NCBI GenBank assembly: GCA_012799135.1
Contig: JAAZLW010000138.1
Location: forward strand, 1-39,229
Length of the DNA stretch: 39,229 bases
Source of the DNA: Bacillota bacterium
GTDB lineage: Bacteria; Bacillota; Limnochordia; DTU087
Direction of reading: 5' to 3'
Of the stretch, positions 15,346 through 29,111 are shown in pieces. Under the pieces are notes generated by a model, which was given only the letters and a program-made list of their open reading frames with translations, searched no databases and was not told the origin of the DNA. Position 1 is the first letter of the stretch, and each line of letters starts with the position of its first letter. The position numbers and the translations under genes are program-made.

Positions 15346-17151
15346 TCAGGGCAGTAGATCCAAGATAGTCGGTTCCCTCTGCCGGATTCGTGCTTTCAAG
15401 ATAGTCTCACCGAGATGATCGAATTCCCGGGCCAGATCCTTGTCGGTTTCTGAGCGGACAAAGATATTGATCAGGTGGCTCTCAAAGGATCTATCCAGCT
15501 GGAGATGGGTGAGTATAGCATCCAGTTCACCGACGACCAACTCGAACATATTGATTTTCTCATGTAAAAGCTTTAGGATATGCTCTTCAATGGTTCCTTG
15601 GGTGGCAAAGTTAAACACATACACATCCTTAGTTTGGCCCAATCGATGTACTCGTCCAATCCTTTGCTCCAGCCGCATGGGGTTCCAAGGGAGGTCGAAA
15701 TTAATCACGTTATTGCAGTATTGGAGGTTTATTCCTTCACCGCCAGATTCGGTGCTGACCAGCACATCGCCATACCGGCGGAACAGGAACTTGGTAAACT
15801 CTTTGCGGTTGGCAGATAAGCTACCATCAAAGGTGACGACACCTAAGCCCGCTGCCTCCAGGTGTTTCTTGATGAATGCCTGAGTACCCCGATATTCCGT
15901 AAAGACAATGACTTTTCCCTCAAGGACTTGAAGTAATTCCAGGAGTTGGCGTATTTTGGCACTTGTTTCAATATGTACCGCTTGCTCCAGAAGTGCGAGT
16001 AGCTCTGTTTCTGTCTCCGGTGAGGCCTTTTCAGTCAGCTTCTTCAGAGTCAGGGCCGCTGCCCAGGCGCTGCTACATACCTCCCTTAGCAAGGTGATAT
16101 AAGGTAGAATTGTACGTCTCTCTGCCAGGGATCTTCGCATCTGTCGCCGAATAAAAGCATTTACCGATAGGTAGAGCTGTGCTTCAGCTTCATTGAGTTC
16201 GACCGGTACCGAACGTACTATTCTCTCGGTGAATTGAATGGTGCCTGTACCGCGACGATTTCTGATCATTACCTGGCCCAAGAGAGAGCGCAGGGCCTCC
16301 GTATCCCGAGGAGTACGCTTATCTGCCACAAAGCGTCGCTTAAAGGCGGCATACGTTCCTAGTTGCCCTGGCTTTAGGAGAGTAATCAGGTTGTATAGCT
16401 CCCTTAGGTCATTTTGCACCGGTGTTGCAGTCAGCATCAGGAAGTACTGTTTGTGGATGTTATTCACAAATCGCCAGTTTTGAGTCCTTGAGTTCTTGAG
16501 TTTATGCGCTTCATCGACAATCAAGAGATCCCAGTCAATAGCCAGTACCTGAGAAAGGTGGGGCTCTCGCTTAGCTGTATCGATGGATGCCACGATACAG
16601 TCACATCTGGCCCAATCGTATTGGCTGCGGTGTAGGGCGACGGAGATTCGGAATTTCTCCCGCAATTCCTCAAACCACTGCCAACATAACGCGGCGGGTG
16701 TCAGGATTAGGACTTTCCGCACTAATCCTCTGAGCGTGTACTCCTTGAGAATCATGCCGGCTTCAATCGTCTTGCCAAGTCCCACCTCATCGGCTAGAAT
16801 TGCCCTGCCTCCCATGTCTTGAATCACCTTGCGGGTTGTCTCCAGCTGATGGGGATACGGGATTACTCCTACAGATTCCCAATGGGAGGCGAGATGTACC
16901 GGGCAAATGAGGTTGGCCAGATCAGAAATGCTGGAAAGGTCTTCACCCAGACGAGCGAGCTCTTGCCATTCCCAATCGGCATACTCTCGCCGCCGGAAGC
17001 TAGTGATGATTTCCCGTAAGGCAGATTGACTAAACTGAACCGACAGGCAGTCATTGACCGCTAGCGGTTCAGAGAATGTCTCGATTTCCGCGGCAAAGGG
17101 GAAAAAACCCAGCTGGTTCTTCAGTAGAGGGACGGTAATGCGGATCTCCAT
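15346..17151 (-). CDS. SNF2-family DEAD/DEAH helicase (copy B)
   Basis: Second Swi2/Snf2 ATPase of the island, about 601 aa. Motif I ILADEVGLGKTIEAGMIL (~117), motif II IVDEAHKLKN (~207), motif III LMLTATPVQNDLRELYNL, motif V STESGGEGINLQYC and motif VI QRIGRVHRLGQTKD (~490) are intact. Extended collinear similarity to copy A shows duplication of one module. It has about 35 extra residues before motif I. The ORF track starts at TTG 17169, but ATG 17151 has AGGAGG 7 nt upstream and is preferred. The YqhG-like gene follows 27 bases after its stop. A protein-displacing or remodelling role is known for the family; the target is unknown. Confidence 0.92.
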   Translation of the reverse strand: MEIRITVPLLKNQLGFFPFAAEIETFSEPLAVNDCLSVQFSQSALREIITSFRRREYADWEWQELARLGEDLSSISDLANLICPVHLASHWESVGVIPYPHQLETTRKVIQDMGGRAILADEVGLGKTIEAGMILKEYTLRGLVRKVLILTPAALCWQWFEELREKFRISVALHRSQYDWARCDCIVASIDTAKREPHLSQVLAIDWDLLIVDEAHKLKNSRTQNWRFVNNIHKQYFLMLTATPVQNDLRELYNLITLLKPGQLGTYAAFKRRFVADKRTPRDTEALRSLLGQVMIRNRRGTGTIQFTERIVRSVPVELNEAEAQLYLSVNAFIRRQMRRSLAERRTILPYITLLREVCSSAWAAALTLKKLTEKASPETETELLALLEQAVHIETSAKIRQLLELLQVLEGKVIVFTEYRGTQAFIKKHLEAAGLGVVTFDGSLSANRKEFTKFLFRRYGDVLVSTESGGEGINLQYCNNVINFDLPWNPMRLEQRIGRVHRLGQTKDVYVFNFATQGTIEEHILKLLHEKINMFELVVGELDAILTHLQLDRSFESHLINIFVRSETDKDLAREFDHLGETILKARIRQREPTILDLLP

Positions 17152-17353
17152 GCCATACCTCCTGGCCAATGTCCCAATCGGGTCTTAGTTTGTCCACTGG
17201 CAGACTAGATTATCTTCTCTGTTCCTAACTACCGGCGATAACGGTGGGTAGGAATCTGAAGCTTTAGAGAGAAGTAGCATATTGGGATTGATTTCCTTCA
17301 GAAGGGGATATTTACCGGGCCCTAATTAATCAACTATTGGGGAGGTATCCTAA

Positions 17354-18783: not shown

Positions 18784-18875
18784 ACTGGAACATCGCATTG
18801 GTCTGGTGAGATTTCCAAATCAAGGGCAGGAGTATAGTTGAAGGCTAAAGAAAATCACCACCAGAGGTGAAGGTT

Positions 18876-20117
18876 GTGAATTGGTGGAAACTATACCTGC
18901 TCATCCTGTTGATGATGGCCCTCTTTTTCCCGGCAAGAGGTATTCATATCGCCTTTTATGCTTTGGCCATAGTGTATTGGGGTGGTGGTTGGCTGTTAAG
19001 GTATGCCTTCCAGCGGATGGAGGTTACCCGCTCTACCGAGCGCACCAGGCTTTTCCTGGGCGAAACAGCACAGATAGCGGTTACCTTCCGCAATCATACC
19101 TTGATTCCCTTAGCTTGGCTTTCTGGATACGAGCACTTACCGGTAGCACTGGAAGCAGGTCGAGCTAAGCGGTGGGTAGTATCCTTGGGGCCGTTGGCTA
19201 CAGCTATTGGTAGCTATTCGATCAGTGGGTCTCAAAGGGGACTATATACTGTGGGGCCTCTGGAGATGACTGTGGGAGAGCCCTTGGGTTTGCATCAATT
19301 TTCCGATATCATTCAATCCTATCATGATATAGTGGTATACCCCCGGATTTTCGCCCTCAAAGAACTGGGATTGCCCTCCAAACTGCCTTATGGGAATATG
19401 CGTACTCGGCAGCCGATTTTCCCAGACCCTGCCCGGTTAGCCGGAGTTCGACAATATCAAGATGGTGATAGTCGCCAATCAATTCATTGGAAGCTGACTG
19501 CCCGAACGGGAGAGTTGCAGGTAAAGCAGTTTCAACACACCGTGGCGGTTGATACGGTGATTTTCCTAAATCTTGACGAAGCGGACTATCTCGTCCATAG
19601 TCTCTACGTCGAGAGTGAATTAGCGATCGAAACAGGCGCGAGTCTGGCTAATTATCTGGCACGATCAGGAGAAACCATCGGGTTGGTCTCCAATGCGCAT
19701 TTGCGGCAACAGAGAGCTGAAGTCGGGCTCAATGAGCCAAAGGAAGCCGCTCTGGCTGAGCTGCCCGCAACGCAACCGACTGTAAGGCTGTTGCCCCGAA
19801 AGGGTATGGCTCAACTGATGCGGATTCTGGAAGCTTTAGCTGCTGCTGAATGTCGTTCGGGACTACCTTTTCCAGAGCTTCTCTCCAATGAGGCGAGGAA
19901 TCTAGCCTGGGGTACAACTCTGCTGGTCGTGACACCCATTGATTCGCCAGAACTAATTGAGGTAGCTCTGGCCTTATTGCGCCTGGGGTACCAACTCTCG
20001 ATCTTTGTGGTAGGTCGTACAGTTCAGCACCCTCAACTATTGTATCGCTCCTCACAAGCCAATCTGCAGCTATTTCGGGTAACCAAAGGCGAGACTATAA
20101 CCTGGGGGATCAGATAG
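18876..20117 (+). CDS. DUF58 domain protein
   Basis: Membrane-associated protein of the DUF58 family, usually encoded with a MoxR ATPase and a DUF4129/transglutaminase protein. Two N-terminal hydrophobic helices (LYLLILLMMALFF, IAFYALAIVYWGGGWLL) precede a beta-rich region. The DUF58 signature is DGDSRQSIHWKLTARTGELQVKQF. A von Willebrand-like fold probably follows (VDTVIFLNLDEADY). The track starts at GTG 18867, which lies inside AGAGGTGA; GTG 18876, 5 nt after that SD, is the better start (413 aa). It heads a DUF58 - DUF4129 - MoxR operon. Cell-envelope or complex-assembly functions are proposed for such clusters; nothing more specific is visible. Confidence 0.87.
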   Translation: MNWWKLYLLILLMMALFFPARGIHIAFYALAIVYWGGGWLLRYAFQRMEVTRSTERTRLFLGETAQIAVTFRNHTLIPLAWLSGYEHLPVALEAGRAKRWVVSLGPLATAIGSYSISGSQRGLYTVGPLEMTVGEPLGLHQFSDIIQSYHDIVVYPRIFALKELGLPSKLPYGNMRTRQPIFPDPARLAGVRQYQDGDSRQSIHWKLTARTGELQVKQFQHTVAVDTVIFLNLDEADYLVHSLYVESELAIETGASLANYLARSGETIGLVSNAHLRQQRAEVGLNEPKEAALAELPATQPTVRLLPRKGMAQLMRILEALAAAECRSGLPFPELLSNEARNLAWGTTLLVVTPIDSPELIEVALALLRLGYQLSIFVVGRTVQHPQLLYRSSQANLQLFRVTKGETITWGIR

Positions 20118-20205
20118 AATAGGATCCTTTAGGGACTTGCGATGTGGAAAAGCACCAAGAGCACCTTGAAGCTGTAGACAAACCGGCGGAGAAAGAAGGG
20201 GCAAA

Positions 20206-21852
20206 ATGCAAGAGAAACATAGCGATGCCGATATAGATAGAATACTCAAATTGGTCAGGCAGCAGGGCCATTGGCTGGAGAGATTCATTCTCCCTGGGCT
20301 AGCCGGTATCTTTACGATTAGCCTATTGGTATTGGCCCGGCAGTACCTGGCTGTTCTTGCTCCTAGGATTACTGTACCCGGTTGGGTAATGATGGTAGGG
20401 GCGATTGCGGCCATCGAAAGCATCTATGCTGCCGGCTTTCATTTGCGGATGCGAACTCCGATGAGCTTGCGAATTGCCGAATTTGCTGTGGTGCTGGGTT
20501 TGGTATATGCAGGGCTGCGGGCCGGGGGAGTAGGACACGAAGCGCCTTTTTTCTCCTCGGTGATCTGGCGTGATCCGCAGATCCTTGTACCACTACTACT
20601 GGTGGCAGGTGCTTGGACTTTGGCAAGAGGCTATGGTCAGACTTTTGTATGGTTAGGAGACATAGCCAGGGAAGTGGGTGACCAGGGAGCTGCCACCTTT
20701 TCCTGGGAAACCGAATCCTATCTCTCAGATTTCCAGGTTAGTAGTGGGCGGGCCCGGGCAGTTGGTTACTTTACCCGCAGATTCCTGTTCTATGTCTGCC
20801 TAGCTTGTCTGTGTAAGGCGGTAATCATTGAAAGTTTTTCAGACAGGCTAGGACCCTTGGTGCATTGGAATAGTATGACTAACGTAGCTACAGTAAGTCT
20901 GCTGGCTTCGGGTATGTTGCTACAAGCCTGTGTGTACCTTTATCGTTTGCGGGTAATCTGGCAAGAAGTGGGGGTGCCGGTGTGTGCTGATTTGCCGCGT
21001 CAGTGGCTATGGAGCAGTCTGGTATCTGTCGGTCTGGTGCTTGTGGTTGCAGTCGTTCTCCCAGCAGGGCTATCACCCCTGAATTTCAGTGACACCATGG
21101 AGATGCTGGCTCGGTGGATGGGGGCAGGGATGGAATTCTCTTTGCCTCAGTCACATCATGATGGTGGCACTGGATATCTATCACCAGCGGCCAGGATGGG
21201 CCCTCCAGAGGTCGGTACGTTCAGCTGGTTGGTAGCCATCCTGTATTTTGCCATGTCGGCTATACTAGTTCTCTTGGCAGTCGGAGCCATAGCTGCGTTG
21301 ATCGGTTTAGTGCTCTTAACGTTCTTCAAGGGCGAGTGGGAGAAGCTGCATGGATTAGCTCGGTTCCCGATCTATATCTACCTTTGGCTGAGGGAGACTG
21401 CCAGGCAGTTAATCAGTTTGCTTGCTGCCGGTGCCAGAAGAGGCCAGCAGCTTTACCGCAGACTGAAAGAAGCAAGACCGACATTGCCGATCGGTAAGGA
21501 TACCGAAAAAATGTTGTCGGAAAGGATGCCTCCTTCAGCTGCTGCACTATATATTCGCCACTTATATGCTTTACTCATAGAAGCTACCGGTCGGTATGGC
21601 CTAGGGCCTCATACCGGTCAAACAGCTCTGGAGTATTCTGTAGGTCTGGGCAGCCGGCTAGATGGGGCCCAGGAAGAGCTGGAATTACTGACTGACTATT
21701 ATCTACAGGCTCGATACAGTAGGTATGGTTTTTCTGCGGGGATTCGGCCGGTTGTCGACAGTCTCTGGAAGAGCGTCATGGCAGCCGTCGACAGGTGGCG
21801 GGAGAAAGAAGTTGCCGAAACAAGCGAGGGCGATGCTGACGAGATTAACTGA
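20206..21852 (+). CDS. DUF4129 polytopic membrane protein
   Basis: A 548-residue protein with about eight membrane helices (from RFILPGLAGIFTISLLVLA to LVLLTFF near ~360) and a cytoplasmic C-terminal DUF4129 domain, recognisable by LYIRHLYALL, TGQTALEYSVGLGSRLD and ELELLTDYYLQARYSRYGFS. In related clusters this domain closes a transglutaminase-like protein. No transglutaminase Cys-His-Asp core is evident here, so only the membrane and DUF4129 parts remain. ATG start with AAGGGG upstream. Its stop overlaps the next start in TGATG, indicating translational coupling with the MoxR gene. Role unknown beyond the cluster association. Confidence 0.8.
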   Translation: MQEKHSDADIDRILKLVRQQGHWLERFILPGLAGIFTISLLVLARQYLAVLAPRITVPGWVMMVGAIAAIESIYAAGFHLRMRTPMSLRIAEFAVVLGLVYAGLRAGGVGHEAPFFSSVIWRDPQILVPLLLVAGAWTLARGYGQTFVWLGDIAREVGDQGAATFSWETESYLSDFQVSSGRARAVGYFTRRFLFYVCLACLCKAVIIESFSDRLGPLVHWNSMTNVATVSLLASGMLLQACVYLYRLRVIWQEVGVPVCADLPRQWLWSSLVSVGLVLVVAVVLPAGLSPLNFSDTMEMLARWMGAGMEFSLPQSHHDGGTGYLSPAARMGPPEVGTFSWLVAILYFAMSAILVLLAVGAIAALIGLVLLTFFKGEWEKLHGLARFPIYIYLWLRETARQLISLLAAGARRGQQLYRRLKEARPTLPIGKDTEKMLSERMPPSAAALYIRHLYALLIEATGRYGLGPHTGQTALEYSVGLGSRLDGAQEELELLTDYYLQARYSRYGFSAGIRPVVDSLWKSVMAAVDRWREKEVAETSEGDADEIN

Positions 21853-22877
21853 TGTGCAGGAAACGGAAGGGAGTGTGCTGGGATTTGAGAGATGAAGCAC
21901 GTGGTGCAACCACATTAGATGTCGAAGCTGTAGCTTCACTTTGTCAACAGATCACAAGGAATGTAGGCCAGGTCATAGTCGGTAAAGCCGATGCTGTGGA
22001 ATTGATGCTCCTGGCTCTGCTCAGTGAAGGCCATGTGTTGGTTGAAGATGTGCCAGGTGTGGGCAAGACTATTCTGGCTCGGGCGATGGCCATATCCTTG
22101 GGGTGTAGTTTTGGGCGGATTCAATGTACTCCTGATCTCCTGCCTTCAGATGTGACCGGTGTTTCAGTCTATGATCCATCAAGTGGGCAATTTGTCTTCC
22201 GCCCTGGCCCGGTAGTGTCACAGATCCTGCTGGCTGATGAGATCAACCGAGCTACACCTAGAACCCAATCGAGCTTGCTGGAGTGCATGGCAGAAGGTCA
22301 GATCACTGTTGATGGCAAGACACGGCGCCTGCCCCGGCCCTTTCTGGTCATGGCTACTCAAAATCCGATCGAGTATGAAGGCACTTTTCCCCTACCTGAG
22401 GCACAGTTGGATCGGTTCTTTCTACGGCTTAAGCTGGGGTATCCCGACGAAACAGAGGAGAGTGAGATCCTCCTACGTCTGCAATATGATCATCCTATCG
22501 ATGCGATCGAGGCTTGCACCGAGCCGGAGACTTTCGTTAGAATGCAAGAGGCCATCAAGGGGATCTATGTTGAGGATTCGGTAAGGGAGTACATTGTCCG
22601 ACTGACCGGAGCAACTCGCCGCCATAGTGATGTGGTCCTAGGAGCAAGCCCCCGAGGTTCGTTGGCTCTGTTTCGGGCAGGCCAAGCCTTGGCAGCATTG
22701 CGGGGTCGTGATTACGTCCTCCCGGATGACATAAAACATGTGGCGATTCCAGTATTAGGTCATCGTCTAATTCTGAAGCCAGAAAGCCAGTTGAGGGGTA
22801 GAGCTCCCGAACACGTAATTCAGGAGCTTCTCCATTCGACAGCTGTTAAGTTCGAAGAGATAGACAATGGAACCTAA
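21852..22877 (+). CDS. MoxR family AAA+ ATPase
   Basis: AAA+ chaperone-like ATPase that activates or assembles partner proteins, often those with von Willebrand/DUF58-type domains. Walker A is VPGVGKTILARAMA, Walker B ILLADEINRATPRTQSSLLE, sensor 1 VMATQNPIEYEGTFPLPEAQ followed by LDRFFLRL, and sensor 2 lies around ASPRGSLALFRAGQALAAL. Length (341 aa) is normal, with a short polar N-terminal extension that may be mis-called. The start overlaps the preceding stop and lacks a clear SD, consistent with coupling. It is last in its operon and converges, with only 7 bases between, on the minus-strand NuoM-like gene. Confidence 0.93.
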   Translation: MCRKRKGVCWDLRDEARGATTLDVEAVASLCQQITRNVGQVIVGKADAVELMLLALLSEGHVLVEDVPGVGKTILARAMAISLGCSFGRIQCTPDLLPSDVTGVSVYDPSSGQFVFRPGPVVSQILLADEINRATPRTQSSLLECMAEGQITVDGKTRRLPRPFLVMATQNPIEYEGTFPLPEAQLDRFFLRLKLGYPDETEESEILLRLQYDHPIDAIEACTEPETFVRMQEAIKGIYVEDSVREYIVRLTGATRRHSDVVLGASPRGSLALFRAGQALAALRGRDYVLPDDIKHVAIPVLGHRLILKPESQLRGRAPEHVIQELLHSTAVKFEEIDNGT

Positions 22878-22884
22878 TTGGCCA

Positions 22885-24327
22885 TCAATTCAGTAGGGGC
22901 ATGATCTGTGTGATGGCAGGCTCGATTACCCCGAGAATCAGCTCACAGCCGCAGCCCAGCAAGAGACTCCCACTCAAGAGCAAGATGGCCGTCATCTTAG
23001 TTCCCAGTGGAGGCGACCGAAAAGTCCTACAGGAGTCAGTGGGTTGGGTGGGTTCCTTTCGGTGGGGCCCCTGCATGATGCCGGCTAGGAACCTAGCATA
23101 ATCAATGGCGATGAAAAAGAGGGCGACGATGATCGCCAAAGACACTCGGGGAAAGCCGCCAGAGGCTGTAGAAAATACAAGCAAGAGGCCAATGAAACCA
23201 GGAAAACCCGGTAGACGTAGTTGTTGAGCAGCTTCCAAACCATAAAGGACTAAAGGCCATCCTTGGAGACTAGTCTGGCCAGATGTCAAGTGAGTCAATG
23301 TGAGAGAGAAGGCCATAGCCGTCCCGAGGGCCAGGAGAGTATAAAGGGAACCGGTGAACGCCTCCATGGTGTTGGAGGCCATCCCCAGAAGCGCAATCCC
23401 TGTATATACCATACTCTGATAGGCCGCCTTCTGATTACGCTCCTCGGCGCCTAAGGCTGCCAATGCGCCGAAAATCAGGTTGACTGCTCCTGCCGCAGCC
23501 AGAACCAGTGTGAAGGCTATCATTGCATCAGGTAAGAGCATCAGGGCAAAGCGCAAGAGGGTATAGACTCCTAGTGGCATAAAACCCCCCATAAGGAGTA
23601 TCCCGGCAGATACAGGCAAATGGCCAATAGTCAGTCTCAACCATATTTGAAAAGGGAAAATAGGAATTCGCAGGGCACACCCGACAAAGATGGCTAGAAA
23701 AACCCACCATTGCGTATTCGGATCCAAATGGGTGATGATGGTATTGGCTAGGTCTTCAGCGGCTAAGGCCGGAGTATCAATCGAGGAGGAGAGGATCAGA
23801 AGACCAACTCCTAGAGCCACAATACTGACTAGGCCAGATAGCAAGTAGGAGCGAGCTGCGGTTAGTTTCTCGGGTTTAGTGGATGGCTCCATCAATAAGT
23901 ATATGGGTACCGTTGTCGCTGCCCAAAACATGAGGAAGAGTACATAGTCCTGTGCCAGAAACCCACCGATGAGGGTAGCTTCCCAGATTAGGAGTAGCAT
24001 GGATTTCTTTTTCAGATTCTCCCCCGGTACCGGCGGGATCAGGTTGACTACAACAGTGAGAAACGTCACCATGGTGATGAATGGAAGGTTAACACCATCG
24101 AGTCTCAATGCATAAGAAACACCTAACGAAGGTATCCATTCTTTTCTTTCCAGGATCGAGAGGATTGGCTCTTGGGCTGAGAACATGGGCCAGGTCAGCA
24201 ATACCATGATCAAAGGCACAAGCGAGACCGCTATGTTTAGCTTATAGAGGAGTTTTTGATTATCCTTCGGTATGAATATCAGCAGTAAAGCTGCGACCCC
24301 CGGGAAAAGCATTAGTGTCGTTAACAC
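22885..24327 (-). CDS. NuoM/MrpD-like antiporter-fold protein lacking proton-path residues
   Basis: Polytopic protein (480 aa, about 13 helices) of the NADH-quinone oxidoreductase subunit M / Mrp antiporter family. The alignment is anchored by DYVLFLMFWAATTVPIYLLM, IPIFPFQIWL and LPGFPGFIG. Compared with E. coli NuoM from memory, the key Glu144 is Ala136, Lys234 is Arg220, Lys265 is Pro251, Glu407 is Leu381, and the two conserved His are Tyr308 and Leu334. The usual HxWLPDAH is QIWLRLTI. Proton pumping by the normal route therefore looks impossible, though the fold is kept. GTG start, AGGAGGT at 7 nt. It follows a small membrane protein gene; no other complex I gene is in the window. Confidence 0.8.
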   Translation of the reverse strand: MLTTLMLFPGVAALLLIFIPKDNQKLLYKLNIAVSLVPLIMVLLTWPMFSAQEPILSILERKEWIPSLGVSYALRLDGVNLPFITMVTFLTVVVNLIPPVPGENLKKKSMLLLIWEATLIGGFLAQDYVLFLMFWAATTVPIYLLMEPSTKPEKLTAARSYLLSGLVSIVALGVGLLILSSSIDTPALAAEDLANTIITHLDPNTQWWVFLAIFVGCALRIPIFPFQIWLRLTIGHLPVSAGILLMGGFMPLGVYTLLRFALMLLPDAMIAFTLVLAAAGAVNLIFGALAALGAEERNQKAAYQSMVYTGIALLGMASNTMEAFTGSLYTLLALGTAMAFSLTLTHLTSGQTSLQGWPLVLYGLEAAQQLRLPGFPGFIGLLLVFSTASGGFPRVSLAIIVALFFIAIDYARFLAGIMQGPHRKEPTQPTDSCRTFRSPPLGTKMTAILLLSGSLLLGCGCELILGVIEPAITQIMPLLN

Positions 24328-24393: not shown

Positions 24394-24783
24394 TCACTTC
24401 TTGAAAATGAACCGATACAGGCTTTTGGGGGCTGTATGGGCTGCCAAGAGATACTGCTCGAGATCTCGGTAAAGCTGGATTAAGTGGGTCTCAAACTCAA
24501 TACAGGCAGCGCCAAGAGTATCTAGAGAGGTTATAAATAGATCCACTGCTCCCAGGCCGGTTTTCTTATCCCAGTCAAAGACAACCTTGCCCATACGAGG
24601 CAAGACCACAAGTGGATGCCACACTGTGTGTTTGGTTTGGGCGCCTCGGAACCAACGGTAAAAGAGGTAAACCACGACCATGAGCGAGGTGATGATGCCC
24701 ATAGTTCGCATCGGGTTTGAGGTAAATGACCAATACGTATGGGCAAGAATTGCATCAGTGTTGATTTGCCACAGGACCCGCAT
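24394..24783 (-). CDS. Small membrane protein upstream of NuoM-like gene, possibly NuoL C-terminus-like
   Basis: About 129 aa from ATG 24783, which has AAAGGAG 6 nt upstream; the track start at 24819 has none. One membrane helix (MRTMGIITSLMVVVYLFY) is followed by RWFRGAQTK and an amphipathic region (DKKTGLGAVDLFITSLDTLG, then FETHLIQLYRDLEQYLL). The pattern of a final membrane helix, VDG-like turn, long helix and QTG/QxY-like end recalls the C-terminus of NuoL-type subunits, but this is a weak, by-eye resemblance. It is probably co-transcribed with the NuoM-like gene 66 bases downstream, and the two products may interact. Confidence 0.65.
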   Translation of the reverse strand: MRVLWQINTDAILAHTYWSFTSNPMRTMGIITSLMVVVYLFYRWFRGAQTKHTVWHPLVVLPRMGKVVFDWDKKTGLGAVDLFITSLDTLGAACIEFETHLIQLYRDLEQYLLAAHTAPKSLYRFIFKK

Positions 24784-24856
24784 AACGTCTCCTTTCTCGT
24801 GCAATGCCGGATTTGTCACTGCCTATTAGTAGATGGTTCACCAGAAGCCGTCTTAT

Positions 24857-24872: not shown

Positions 24873-24952
24873 GCCTCTTTGTTTGGCGGTCATCAGGAGT
24901 ATACCTGACTGTGCAGGAGTTTGTCGAAACTAGCAGAAGTAGTTAGGGCACC

Positions 24953-25013: not shown

Positions 25014-26408
25014 TTGACAGAGGGAAATACTTTACGGGATGAGGCTCGCAAAGCACCGATGCAAGCTTTAAGAGTAGGCATGATCTCTTTAGGCTGTGCC
25101 AAGAACCTCGTTGATAGTGAGCTAATGTTAGGCAGCCTACAAGAGGCTGGCTATGAGATAACCCCTCTGCCTGGAGAGGCCGAGGTGATTATCATTAATA
25201 CCTGCGGGTTTATCGGGCCCGCCAAGGAAGAGTCCATTGATACCATTCTGGAAATGGCTGAGTATAAACAGCATGGCCGATGTCGAGCCCTGATCGTCAC
25301 AGGATGTCTTAGCCAGAGGTATAGCCAGGAATTGATGCAGGAGATGCCGGAAATCGATGGTATGCTAGGGACCGGTGAGCTAGATCGACTGCCAGAGCTA
25401 CTTCGGGCTGTGTTGCAGGGTAAGCGACCCATTTTTGTAGGACAGCCCGGGTTCAACTATGACGCCCAACAGCCCCGGCTGGTGACAACCCCTCCCCATA
25501 GTGTATATGTAAAGATCGCCGAAGGATGCAGCCACAACTGTGCCTATTGCGTGATTCCCGCAATTAGGGGACCCTATCGAAGCAGACCCATGGCCAGTGT
25601 CTTAGCGGAAGCTGAGGAACTTGCCATCCGTGGCGCCAAGGAGCTGATTCTGATCGCTCAAGATGCCAGTGCTTACGGCAAGGATCTACCCGGCCACCCC
25701 GGCCTGTCAGAGTTGCTGGATGGATTATCTGAGCTGCCGGGGATACAGTGGCTGCGAGTTTTGTATACATACCCCACCACTTTTTCACCTCGCTTGATCG
25801 AGGAGTTTGCCCAAAATCCCAAGGTTTGTCACTATGTGGATCTGCCTTTGCAGCATGCCTGCAATGATACACTGATCAGGATGGGAAGAGGCCCAGTAGC
25901 CAAAGCGCAAAGGCGTCTCGTCCAAGAGCTGCGTCGGGCTATGCCAGATGTGGCTTTGAGGAGCTCGTTTATTGTGGGCTTCCCCGGCGAAACGGAAGCG
26001 GAGTTTCAGGAGTTGCTAGATTTTCTGGAGGAAATCAGATTTGACCATGTGGGCATTTTTGCCTTTTCTCCGGAAGAAGGTTCTCGGGCTGCGAAACTGC
26101 CAAACCAGATACCCGAGTCAGTCAAAGAAGAGCGGCATCGGCAAGCCATGCTACTACAGCAACAGATCACACGAGAAAAAAACAAAGCCCATGTCGGCAA
26201 AGTATACCAAGTCCTGATCGATGGACCTTCAGAAGAGACAGAGCTAGTCTTAGTTGCCCGTTCCCAGTATCAAGCACCTGATGTGGATGGCGTGATCTAT
26301 CTAGGTAACCGTTGGCTCCCGGCAGGGGAGTTGGCACGGGCTCGGATTACCGAGAGTTATACTTATGACTTGGTGGCAGAGATCTTGGATGAAGGGAGTG
26401 AGGGATGA
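25014..26408 (+). CDS. rimO: Ribosomal protein S12 methylthiotransferase RimO
   Basis: Radical SAM enzyme that methylthiolates the conserved Asp of ribosomal protein S12. The N-terminal UPF0004 domain carries the three cluster cysteines in ISLGCAKNLVDSE, INTCGFIGPAKEE and VTGCLSQRY; the SLGCAKNLVDSE form is typical of RimO rather than MiaB. The radical SAM CxxxCxxC motif is EGCSHNCAYCVIP (~171). A TRAM-like domain closes the protein. The track uses TTG 25014, with only a GGGTGAGAG-like SD; ATG 25059 (MQALRVGMISLGC) is an alternative. The last bases overlap pgsA, indicating a rimO-pgsA operon. Confidence 0.94.
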   Translation: MTEGNTLRDEARKAPMQALRVGMISLGCAKNLVDSELMLGSLQEAGYEITPLPGEAEVIIINTCGFIGPAKEESIDTILEMAEYKQHGRCRALIVTGCLSQRYSQELMQEMPEIDGMLGTGELDRLPELLRAVLQGKRPIFVGQPGFNYDAQQPRLVTTPPHSVYVKIAEGCSHNCAYCVIPAIRGPYRSRPMASVLAEAEELAIRGAKELILIAQDASAYGKDLPGHPGLSELLDGLSELPGIQWLRVLYTYPTTFSPRLIEEFAQNPKVCHYVDLPLQHACNDTLIRMGRGPVAKAQRRLVQELRRAMPDVALRSSFIVGFPGETEAEFQELLDFLEEIRFDHVGIFAFSPEEGSRAAKLPNQIPESVKEERHRQAMLLQQQITREKNKAHVGKVYQVLIDGPSEETELVLVARSQYQAPDVDGVIYLGNRWLPAGELARARITESYTYDLVAEILDEGSEG

Positions 26409-26926
26409 TGCGGCGATTGACCCTAGCGACAGCCATCACCTTTATACGGATTTTGCTCATCCCTGTTTTCATGTTTTTGGTTTCCAGTTCACTACCCTAT
26501 GGTGACACTGCTGCTGCCGTAATCTTCGCGATTGCAGCCCTTACTGACAGCCTGGATGGATATGCAGCCAGGATTCGCAAGGAGGTCACCCGCTTTGGGC
26601 AATTGGTAGATCCTTTGGCCGACAAGCTCTTGGTAACAGCTGCCTTGTTCACCTTGGTGGAAATGGGACGGGTTTCATCTTGGATTGCTGTTCTGATTGT
26701 TGGTCGCGAATTTGCCGTATCCGGGTTGAGGATCGTAGCCGCGGTAGAAGGTATCGTCATTGCTGCCAGCCCCTTGGCCAAGGTGAAAACGACCCTGCAG
26801 ATGGTCGCTATCGTGGCTCTACTCCTGCAATGGCCCTTTGGGTTAGTGTTAATGTGGATAGCTACTGTGGTCACCTTCCTTTCCGGGTTGGACTATTTCT
26901 ACCGCGCCCGCGGCCTATTTGGCTAA
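26405..26926 (+). CDS. pgsA: CDP-diacylglycerol--glycerol-3-phosphate 3-phosphatidyltransferase
   Basis: Integral membrane enzyme making phosphatidylglycerophosphate, the first step to phosphatidylglycerol and cardiolipin. The CDP-alcohol phosphotransferase motif is intact: DGYAARIRKEVTRFGQLVDP followed by LADKL (~48-72), giving D-G-x2-A-R-x8-G-x3-D-x3-D. Several hydrophobic helices; 173 aa is slightly short but normal for small PgsA proteins. ATG 26405 (or 26408) overlaps the rimO stop, with GGGAGTGAGGG upstream, so translation is coupled. Confidence 0.93.
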   Translation: MMRRLTLATAITFIRILLIPVFMFLVSSSLPYGDTAAAVIFAIAALTDSLDGYAARIRKEVTRFGQLVDPLADKLLVTAALFTLVEMGRVSSWIAVLIVGREFAVSGLRIVAAVEGIVIAASPLAKVKTTLQMVAIVALLLQWPFGLVLMWIATVVTFLSGLDYFYRARGLFG

Positions 26927-27048: not shown

Positions 27049-27072
27049 GGCTTACAGGTGGGAGGGGGCACT

Positions 27073-27615
27073 ATGGGGAAGATCCGAATTCCGGTTGTGA
27101 TCATGATTTTTGCGATTTCACTGACCCTGCTACTGCTCGGTCAGCATTTTATCTTTAGGAAACATAATCTTAGCAGTCTAGAAGCTGAGTTCATGGATAT
27201 CTCAGGAGTAAAGGCCGCTCGGGTTAACTCCGGCCCCGACGGTCTTAACGTGGTTGTGGGTCTGGAGAATACAATTGAACTAAAAACACTACATGACCAG
27301 ATGGTGAGATTGGCGAAACAGGCGGGGATACCGGCAGACCGGATTACTATCCAAGATGCAAGGGGCCCGATTCTTTCACAAGCGCTATATGCTATTCACT
27401 ACTCCGTAGAGGAAGGGATTGCTACGGGCCACTTTCAGCTGATGGCAGGGACTGTTAGTGAAGAGCTGGCTAGGCGCGATATAGAGGATTTCAAGATCTG
27501 GGTGGAACCCGGATTTGTGTACTTGGAGATGCACTATGGGCCGGAACATCTTTACCAGGTGTTTCCTCGCCAGGGTTTGGAAGTAGTGCGGGGGAGCACC
27601 GTTGAGGAAGGGTGA
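27073..27615 (+). CDS. Hypothetical membrane-anchored protein coupled to FtsH-like protease
   Basis: Unrecognised protein of about 180 aa. An N-terminal signal-anchor (IPVVIMIFAISLTLLLLGQHF) is followed by a soluble domain with alternating strands and helices (FMDISGVKAARVNSGPDGLN; LHDQMVRLAKQAGIPADRIT), which looks like a small alpha/beta fold. No catalytic motif is seen. The track starts at GTG 27058; ATG 27073 has GGAGGGGG (27061-27068) at the right distance and is preferred. Its TGA overlaps the GTG that opens the protease frame, so the two are probably co-translated and the product may be an adaptor, substrate or regulator of the protease. Confidence 0.75.
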   Translation: MGKIRIPVVIMIFAISLTLLLLGQHFIFRKHNLSSLEAEFMDISGVKAARVNSGPDGLNVVVGLENTIELKTLHDQMVRLAKQAGIPADRITIQDARGPILSQALYAIHYSVEEGIATGHFQLMAGTVSEELARRDIEDFKIWVEPGFVYLEMHYGPEHLYQVFPRQGLEVVRGSTVEEG

Positions 27616-29111
27616 GGGCCGTGGAGACTTATTGGAAAGAGGCAGCACTAGGAACAGGAGTGGCTGTATTTATAGCTTTAGGGATCTGGGGTGTGGATGT
27701 CACTCCCGTTGCAGTGCTGGCTGGACTGGTTATCCTACTGCAGATGATGTTCACTGGTCGTCTTGCCGGTAGCCGCAAGCTCGAGACCCTGACTCTGGAT
27801 GGACGCAATCCTGCAGAACCTATCGTTACCTTTGATGATATCGGTGGGCAAGAAACCGCCAAACGAGAGCTCCTGGAGGCTTTGGAGTTCATCAATAATC
27901 AAGAAAAATGTCTGAGATTAGGTATTCGCCCCCTGAAGGGCATTCTGCTTGTGGGTCCCCCGGGAACCGGCAAGACCTTACTGGCCAAAGCGGCTGCCAG
28001 TTTCACTGATTCTGCCTTCGTAGCGGCTAGCGGCTCGTCATTTGTGGAGATGTATGCCGGGGTCGGAGCTCAAAGAATACGTAAGGTTTTTTCTACGGGT
28101 AGACAGGTGGCTAGAGAGCAAGGAAAGAACGGTGCAATAGTCTTTATCGATGAGATCGAGGTAATAGGTGGGAAACGGGGTCGTCACAGCAGCCATTTGG
28201 AGTATGACCAGACCCTGAATCAGCTATTGGTTGAAATGGATGGTATCAACACCACAGGGGTGCGAGTATTGGTAGTAGGAGCTACTAACCGCGCCGATCT
28301 ACTGGATCCGGCCTTGGTCCGCCCAGGTCGATTTGATCGGGTCGTCCGTGTGGACCTACCGGATAAAGAGGGACGGTTGCACATACTCCGGATTCATGCC
28401 CGGAACAAACCTTTGGCGGCCAATGTGGATTTGGAGAAAATCGCCGGTGAAACCTTTGGTTTCTCTGGTGCTCACTTAGAGAGTCTGCTCAATGAAGCAG
28501 CAATCAATGCTCTGCGCAGCTCATCCAGCCAAATTCGGAACCAAGATATCCGGGATGCCCTGGAAAAAGTGATGCTGGGAGAGAAATTAGATCGCAAACC
28601 TTTAGAGGAGGAGCGGCGCAGGATTGCGTACCACGAGACCGGCCATGCTTTGGTCAGTGAATGCATCCGCGCAGGCTCAGTCTCTTCTCTGACGGTAATC
28701 CCCAGAGGACAAGCCTTGGGCTATATGCGCCAAGCCCCTGAGGGTGATAAGTACCTATATAGCAAACAGCAGCTGCTGGATCAAATCGCCATTGCCTTGG
28801 GTGGGGCCATAATGGAGGAAATGTTTTTTGGAAGCCGTAGCACTGGCTCCAAAGGTGATTTTGATCAGGCAGTGGAGGCCGCCTATCAGATTATCTTTGG
28901 AGGTATGTCCGCTTTGGGCATAGTCAGTAAGCAACACGTGCTACCTGAAGACGTAAATGGTGAAGTCCACGCCATTATCAGTGGGCAAGAGAAACGTGTT
29001 CGAGAGTTTCTCAAATGCCATCAGGCAGTAGCTGAAGCGTTGGCAGATGAGCTTTTGAAGGAAGAGAAGCTGTCAGGCACCCGTGTTCGGGAGCTTCTTA
29101 GAGCCGGCTAA
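27612..29111 (+). CDS. Short FtsH-like AAA+ zinc metalloprotease
   Basis: ATP-dependent membrane protease paralogue, 499 aa against about 600-650 for standard FtsH. The N-terminus is only a hydrophobic hairpin (GVAVFIALGIWG; VAVLAGLVILLQMMF) and lacks the usual extracytoplasmic domain. The AAA module is intact: VGPPGTGKTLLAKA (~115), IVFIDEIEVIGGKRG, and the second region of homology NRADLLDPALVRPGRFDR. The protease has HETGH (~341) and the third zinc ligand in KGDFDQAVEAA (~415). GTG 27612 overlaps the previous stop; GTG 27621 is an alternative. It should be proteolytically active by motif. It is coupled to an unknown membrane protein. Confidence 0.88.
   Translation: MRAVETYWKEAALGTGVAVFIALGIWGVDVTPVAVLAGLVILLQMMFTGRLAGSRKLETLTLDGRNPAEPIVTFDDIGGQETAKRELLEALEFINNQEKCLRLGIRPLKGILLVGPPGTGKTLLAKAAASFTDSAFVAASGSSFVEMYAGVGAQRIRKVFSTGRQVAREQGKNGAIVFIDEIEVIGGKRGRHSSHLEYDQTLNQLLVEMDGINTTGVRVLVVGATNRADLLDPALVRPGRFDRVVRVDLPDKEGRLHILRIHARNKPLAANVDLEKIAGETFGFSGAHLESLLNEAAINALRSSSSQIRNQDIRDALEKVMLGEKLDRKPLEEERRRIAYHETGHALVSECIRAGSVSSLTVIPRGQALGYMRQAPEGDKYLYSKQQLLDQIAIALGGAIMEEMFFGSRSTGSKGDFDQAVEAAYQIIFGGMSALGIVSKQHVLPEDVNGEVHAIISGQEKRVREFLKCHQAVAEALADELLKEEKLSGTRVRELLRAG

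Follow-up and report, generated by a model that had tools for sequence, protein, structure and literature searches.

A NuoM-derived protein without a proton path, apparently maintained at the former nuo locus after the loss of complex I

The window, the whole stretch of 39,229 nucleotides that was analysed (contig C9 of a 3.1 Mb assembly in 362 contigs), encodes a full-length relative of the complex I subunit NuoM, here called NuoM', in which the residues of the proton path have been replaced. Our main reading, to which a probability of about 0.6 is assigned, is that nuoM' and a small gene upstream of it, nuoL', are an in-place remnant of a nuo operon, and that NuoM' has been kept as a passive, proton-tight, stand-alone scaffold in the membrane. 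Slightly better than even odds are given to the wider claim of a stranded NuoM that has lost its proton path, has acquired a new function (as a scaffold, or as a channel built on newly conserved charges) and is retained in two families, probably belonging to two orders.

The nuoM' frame runs on the minus strand from a GTG at 24327 to a stop codon ending at 22885, whereas many stops interrupt the plus strand over 22885-24327. A preliminary description of this DNA had reported an intact frame of 480 codons, which was confirmed from start to stop, with a Shine-Dalgarno sequence of its own:

22885-24327, minus strand: nuoM', NuoM-derived protein of 480 residues without the proton-path residues
24336-24340, minus strand: Shine-Dalgarno sequence GGAGG of nuoM', read from the sequence

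A Pfam profile search matched NuoM' to PF00361, and its top NCBIfam match was the NuoM model TIGR01972 (NDH_I_M; E value 1.5e-56), at a score of 192.1 bits that lies below the curated cut-off of 263.8. Identity to the NuoM proteins of the same class is about 30%. A phylogenetic tree separated NuoM together with NuoM' from NuoL, NuoN and Mrp proteins with support of 100/100, the placement of two distant copies, in an order-mate (G011) and in a class-mate outside the order (G014), being uncertain owing to their very long branches. The AlphaFold2 model of NuoM' (pLDDT 82, pTM 0.86) found its best matches in the PDB among NuoM/ND4 structures, with TM-scores of 0.8-0.88, and, like NuoM, shows breaks in TM7 and TM12. 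The model thus predicts that the NuoM fold has been retained, in agreement with the earlier observation that the helices and their spacing are kept.

No match to NuoH (PF00146) or NuoD (PF00346) was obtained in any of the 11 genomes of the family, all of them MAGs and two rated 100% complete, nor in the order-mate G011; both proteins were above the cut-off in 18 of the 61 genomes searched. The preliminary description had proposed checking whether the genome holds a separate nuo or mrp cluster, and the answer is that NuoH and NuoD are missing from it and an Mrp operon is present. Its three other PF00361 proteins (on C287), considered as a canonical nuo cluster, were rejected as such because they form this Mrp operon, beside a SulP gene. 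This gene, for a SulP-type transporter, immediately precedes the operon (G000:C287, 4584-13591), as it does in G011, and together they may take up anions in a way coupled to sodium or protons.

Gene order places nuoM' at the position formerly held by the nuo operon. Among complex I-bearing class-mates, those with contigs that extend far enough show the operon either beside ftsH alone or in divergent orientation to a row made up of rimO, pgsA (not found in all), the gene of a 185-residue protein, and ftsH; in one of them (G015) a SNF2 helicase gene follows nuoN. The corresponding features of the window, assigned by gene order, are:

25014-26408, plus strand: rimO, ancestral left flank of the nuo operon
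26405-26926, plus strand: pgsA-like CDP-alcohol phosphatidyltransferase gene, ancestral flank
27058-29111, plus strand: gene for a 185-residue protein and short ftsH, ancestral flank
15346-17169, minus strand: SNF2 helicase gene, ancestral right flank (gene order in G015 and G011)

In both the window and G011, where the SNF2 helicase gene is found just beyond nuoM', these flanks enclose two genes in the order nuoL-nuoM, indicating that the pair is a remnant of the operon left in place. On this gene order, nuoM' is identified as the positional remnant of nuoM in bacteria that no longer have complex I. The class-mate G014 has a NuoM' of 395 residues, with a gene of 214 residues upstream, about 5 kb from rimO. 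Among 73 genomes of the class, relic-type copies were found only in the 12 of this order and in G014. The relic extends to a second family and probably to a second order. Relic-bearing genomes grouped together with support of 100 in a tree of rimO and ftsH, within which G011 grouped weakly with G014 (support 31), and a single loss of complex I in the relic-bearing lineage is therefore the simplest history. A search of genome contigs with the single NuoM' sequence gave no match; the relatives were found by an alignment-based search and include the MAG 'Clostridiales bacterium DTU087', a name used in a biogas metagenome paper (PMC4736482). The relic-bearing bacteria are probably an anaerobic digester group of the class Limnochordia.

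Three further observations concern the locus and its counterparts. The 185-residue protein (27058-27615, plus strand) is without a Pfam match and is encoded directly upstream of the short ftsH-like gene across the class. A cluster encoding a DUF58 protein, a DUF4129 membrane protein and a MoxR ATPase (18867-22877, plus strand) is convergent with nuoM' and ends 8 bp from its stop codon; it sits between the relic and the SNF2 helicase gene throughout the family, and is not present at the G011 locus. A second nuo cluster, in which nuoN comes directly after nuoL and nuoM is missing, occurs in several class-mates (G029:C10:174000-189500; G026:C1:3283000-3298500), and a complex I encoded there would carry just two antiporter-type subunits.

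The small gene upstream of nuoM' occupies the position that nuoL holds at the nuo locus, directly upstream of nuoM. Its features are:

24394-24783, minus strand: nuoL', 129 residues, probable shrunken NuoL (TM6 remnant and C-terminal helix), from gene order and family alignment
24789-24795, minus strand: Shine-Dalgarno sequence AAAGGAG of nuoL', read from the sequence
24898-24927, minus strand: promoter-like site upstream of nuoL' (10/12 matches, no more than chance expects)

The ATG at 24783 starts a gene that lies 66 bp upstream of nuoM', a longer reading frame starting at 24819 being possible, and a scan for promoters and terminators returned no more sites than expected by chance. Homologues of nuoL' are present in seven of the 11 family genomes; the relatives' versions, with lengths of 318, 303, 283, 154, 136 and 122 residues, all keep the reading frame. 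The gene has been wholly lost from G002, which shows that nuoL' and nuoM' are not an obligate unit. The long forms resemble TM3-TM6 of NuoL (GVMVANNLVFMLLFWQGVTWAGYLI compared with 27 residues of NuoL), although the likeness is weak by sequence: hhalign gave P=0.002 for NuoL over TM3-TM6, against 0.04 for the NuoM and Mrp controls and 0.69 for NuoN. Every version keeps the C-terminal 75 residues, for which dN/dS between pairs ranges from 0.2 to 0.9, with the smallest values among close relatives; used alone in hhalign, this part gave no profile match to NuoL. Searches of nuoL' against the Pfam and NCBIfam HMM libraries gave no meaningful match, and its AlphaFold2 model was poor (pLDDT 51). Position and residual likeness suggest that nuoL' is probably a nuoL eroding stepwise, lineage by lineage; of all parts of our account, this one is the weakest. 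At the G014 locus (C23, 3-1828), what precedes nuoM' appears by eye to be an N-terminal, not a C-terminal, piece of NuoL (LRVDSFSLACLVTILTIQVIGL).

NuoM' was aligned with E. coli NuoM (NC_000913), 11 complex I NuoM proteins of the same class and the ten same-family orthologues (the window included). In the window protein, E. coli E144 corresponds to A136, K173 to S160, K234 to R220, K265 to P251, H322 to Y308, H348 to L334 and E407 to L381, and the Asp/His pair of TM7 (columns 232 and 234) is also gone; the correspondences that had been proposed by eye for Glu144, Lys234, Lys265, both histidines and Glu407 were exactly reproduced. All seven E. coli residues listed, K173 included, are replaced in every same-family orthologue covering their columns (10/10), with Arg at 220 and Pro at 251 in all ten and Tyr at 308 in nine, the other having Cys. 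It had further been suggested that the proton-path residues were singled out for loss. Here the preliminary description was not supported, since 4 of 17 ionisable canonical-invariant columns were retained as against 39 of 108 other canonical-invariant columns (Fisher p=0.41), and targeted stripping of ionisable residues was rejected as unsupported. The best-kept canonical-invariant residues are glycine and proline (18/31). The loss is complete along the path but does not amount, statistically, to a targeted stripping. Charges within or near the membrane helices of NuoM' are E116, R220, R259, K300, R371, D409 and R412, and these may serve another conduction path.

Selection on nuoM' bears on whether the gene is a functionless relic, slowly decaying and intact only by chance. 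In the orthologue tree, omega was 0.175, and two subsets analysed separately gave 0.177 and 0.163. The neighbouring genes gave 0.073-0.18 and class NuoM 0.061, so that nuoM' is roughly three times less constrained than its counterparts in the class. This faster evolution is what a decaying gene would show, as are the very long branches of the G011 and G014 copies, the plain erosion of the neighbouring nuoL' and the divergence of the G002 copy, which exceeds that of all others in the family. However, the steadiness of omega in the two subsets argues against decay, and fixing omega at 1 on the same tree lowered the log-likelihood from -12429 to -13119, a cost of about 690 units. Pairwise dN/dS, which the preliminary description had advised measuring on homologues with the same substitutions, was 0.12-0.19, and no in-frame stop was found in any relative, at dS values between pairs that run from 0.5 to more than 1 (the copies of G006, G008 and G009, at contig edges, being covered only in part). 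The pseudogene signs of stops, frameshifts and an omega near 1 were thus absent from the nuoM' family, and in G007 nuoM' is intact where an Mrp gene is broken. The gene is intact and under purifying selection, as had been argued earlier from its open frame, and decay is considered very unlikely.

The same genomes bear on the remaining alternatives. NuoM' could serve as a spare subunit, either in the Mrp antiporter or in some other membrane complex such as Rnf: MrpD belongs to the same fold family, and these genomes contain Mrp as well as Rnf genes. The Mrp operon is, however, eroding in one genus of the family while NuoM' stays intact: MrpD1 of G007 (C47) is frame-broken, for which a sequencing error in the MAG is possible, and the second MrpD gene and the MrpA gene are missing from the Mrp locus of G005 (C101). 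No Mrp match was obtained in G008 and G009, both incomplete genomes. Moreover, nuoM' is unlinked to the mrp operon, which lies on another contig, and the tree does not place NuoM' with MrpD; a spare-subunit role is accordingly judged improbable. Lower still, and close to negligible, is the chance that nuoM' was acquired independently as an antiporter-type gene, for instance a DabB-like one, and is no relic of nuo. The low identity to class NuoM proteins and the score below the TIGR01972 cut-off would fit such an origin, but the exact ancestral flanks, the nuoL-nuoM order and the NuoM-specific position in the tree speak against it. The DabB-like form of this idea was rejected on finding no match to DabA (PF10070) in the genome. 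The main rival to a scaffold is a new transport function, in which NuoM' would now act on some other substrate, as a channel, a transporter or a binding protein, by way of E116, R220, K300, R371, D409 and R412. Purifying selection is clear, and K300, R371, D409 and R412 are invariant in the ten same-family orthologues and absent from class NuoM, as this explanation would lead one to expect. These new charges are nevertheless missing from the G011 and G014 copies, except for R412 in G014, and no substrate-linked gene is conserved beside nuoM', the moxR-DUF4129-DUF58 cluster not being found at the G011 locus. A transport function is therefore regarded as possible but doubtful. With no sign of a new partner gene or of a polar axis, NuoM' is most simply read as a passive scaffold, and this is taken as the default.

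For the scaffold reading, the following course of events may be proposed. An anaerobic lineage, probably within the Limnochordia, has lost complex I, with only two genes left between the ancestral flanks, and nuoM, though deprived of the ion-pair, middle-lysine, histidine and exit-glutamate residues, has remained full-length and selected. Isolated Nqo13, the counterpart of NuoM, conducts protons down the proton-motive force; its replacements K235M (middle Lys) and E377Q (terminal Glu) block conduction, and its authors state that antiporter modules on their own have to avoid dissipating that force (PMC11496545). A lone NuoM would likewise be expected to leak protons, to the harm of a cell dependent on Rnf and F-type ATP synthase; both are present in all 11 family genomes, so that such a leak would be costly. 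Without the electron-transfer arm, NuoM would become tolerable once proton-tight, through the changes Lys265 to Pro, Glu407 to Leu, His322 to Tyr and His348 to Leu. By the equivalence drawn in the present analysis, Nqo13 K235 and E377 are E. coli K265 and E407. Because these conduction-critical residues are gone and complex I is absent, we infer that NuoM' is non-pumping and proton-tight. Selection would then keep the 14-helix fold as a passive, non-conducting scaffold, perhaps stabilised by K300, R371, D409 and R412 and, in most genomes, by a NuoL-derived C-terminal helix. Of the earlier account, the intact frame and, by the inference just given (PMC11496545), the non-pumping role stand, with scaffold or channel as candidate roles; the singling out of residues is unsupported, and the nuo-operon origin and the probable nuoL neighbour had been missed.

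Compared with known systems, NuoM' resembles NuoM/ND4/Nqo13 in sequence family, in a predicted fold of 14 helices with breaks in TM7 and TM12, in chromosomal position and in having a nuoL-like gene upstream, but differs in its genome without complex I, in the loss of every proton-path residue and in its identity of only about 30%. The laboratory-dissected Nqo12 and Nqo13 (PMC11496545) are likewise lone NuoM-type subunits in a membrane, and the two positions at which conduction of Nqo13 was blocked match natural substitutions in NuoM'; those modules are artificial and conduct protons, whereas NuoM' is natural and predicted not to. MrpA and MrpD share the fold, and function without an electron-transfer arm is an Mrp feature, but Mrp keeps the Lys/Glu path within a multi-subunit operon, which this genome has separately. 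DabB of the DAB inorganic-carbon pump is also a complex I-type membrane protein outside complex I, but it couples to the membrane potential, while NuoM' is without an evident proton path in a genome without DabA. No stranded, vestigial or stand-alone non-pumping bacterial NuoM was found in the open-access literature, most subscription journals being outside that scope; the protein family and fold are already known, and a stand-alone NuoM maintained after complex I loss appears, within that literature, to be new. On the prevailing view, Mrp-type antiporter subunits were among the modules from which complex I was put together. NuoM' would represent the reverse, a subunit left behind and maintained without the complex or a proton path, and, as a NuoM fold freed from pumping, would offer a natural experiment that separates structural from proton-transfer positions. 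It is predicted that NuoM', unlike isolated Nqo13, should not leak protons in liposomes.
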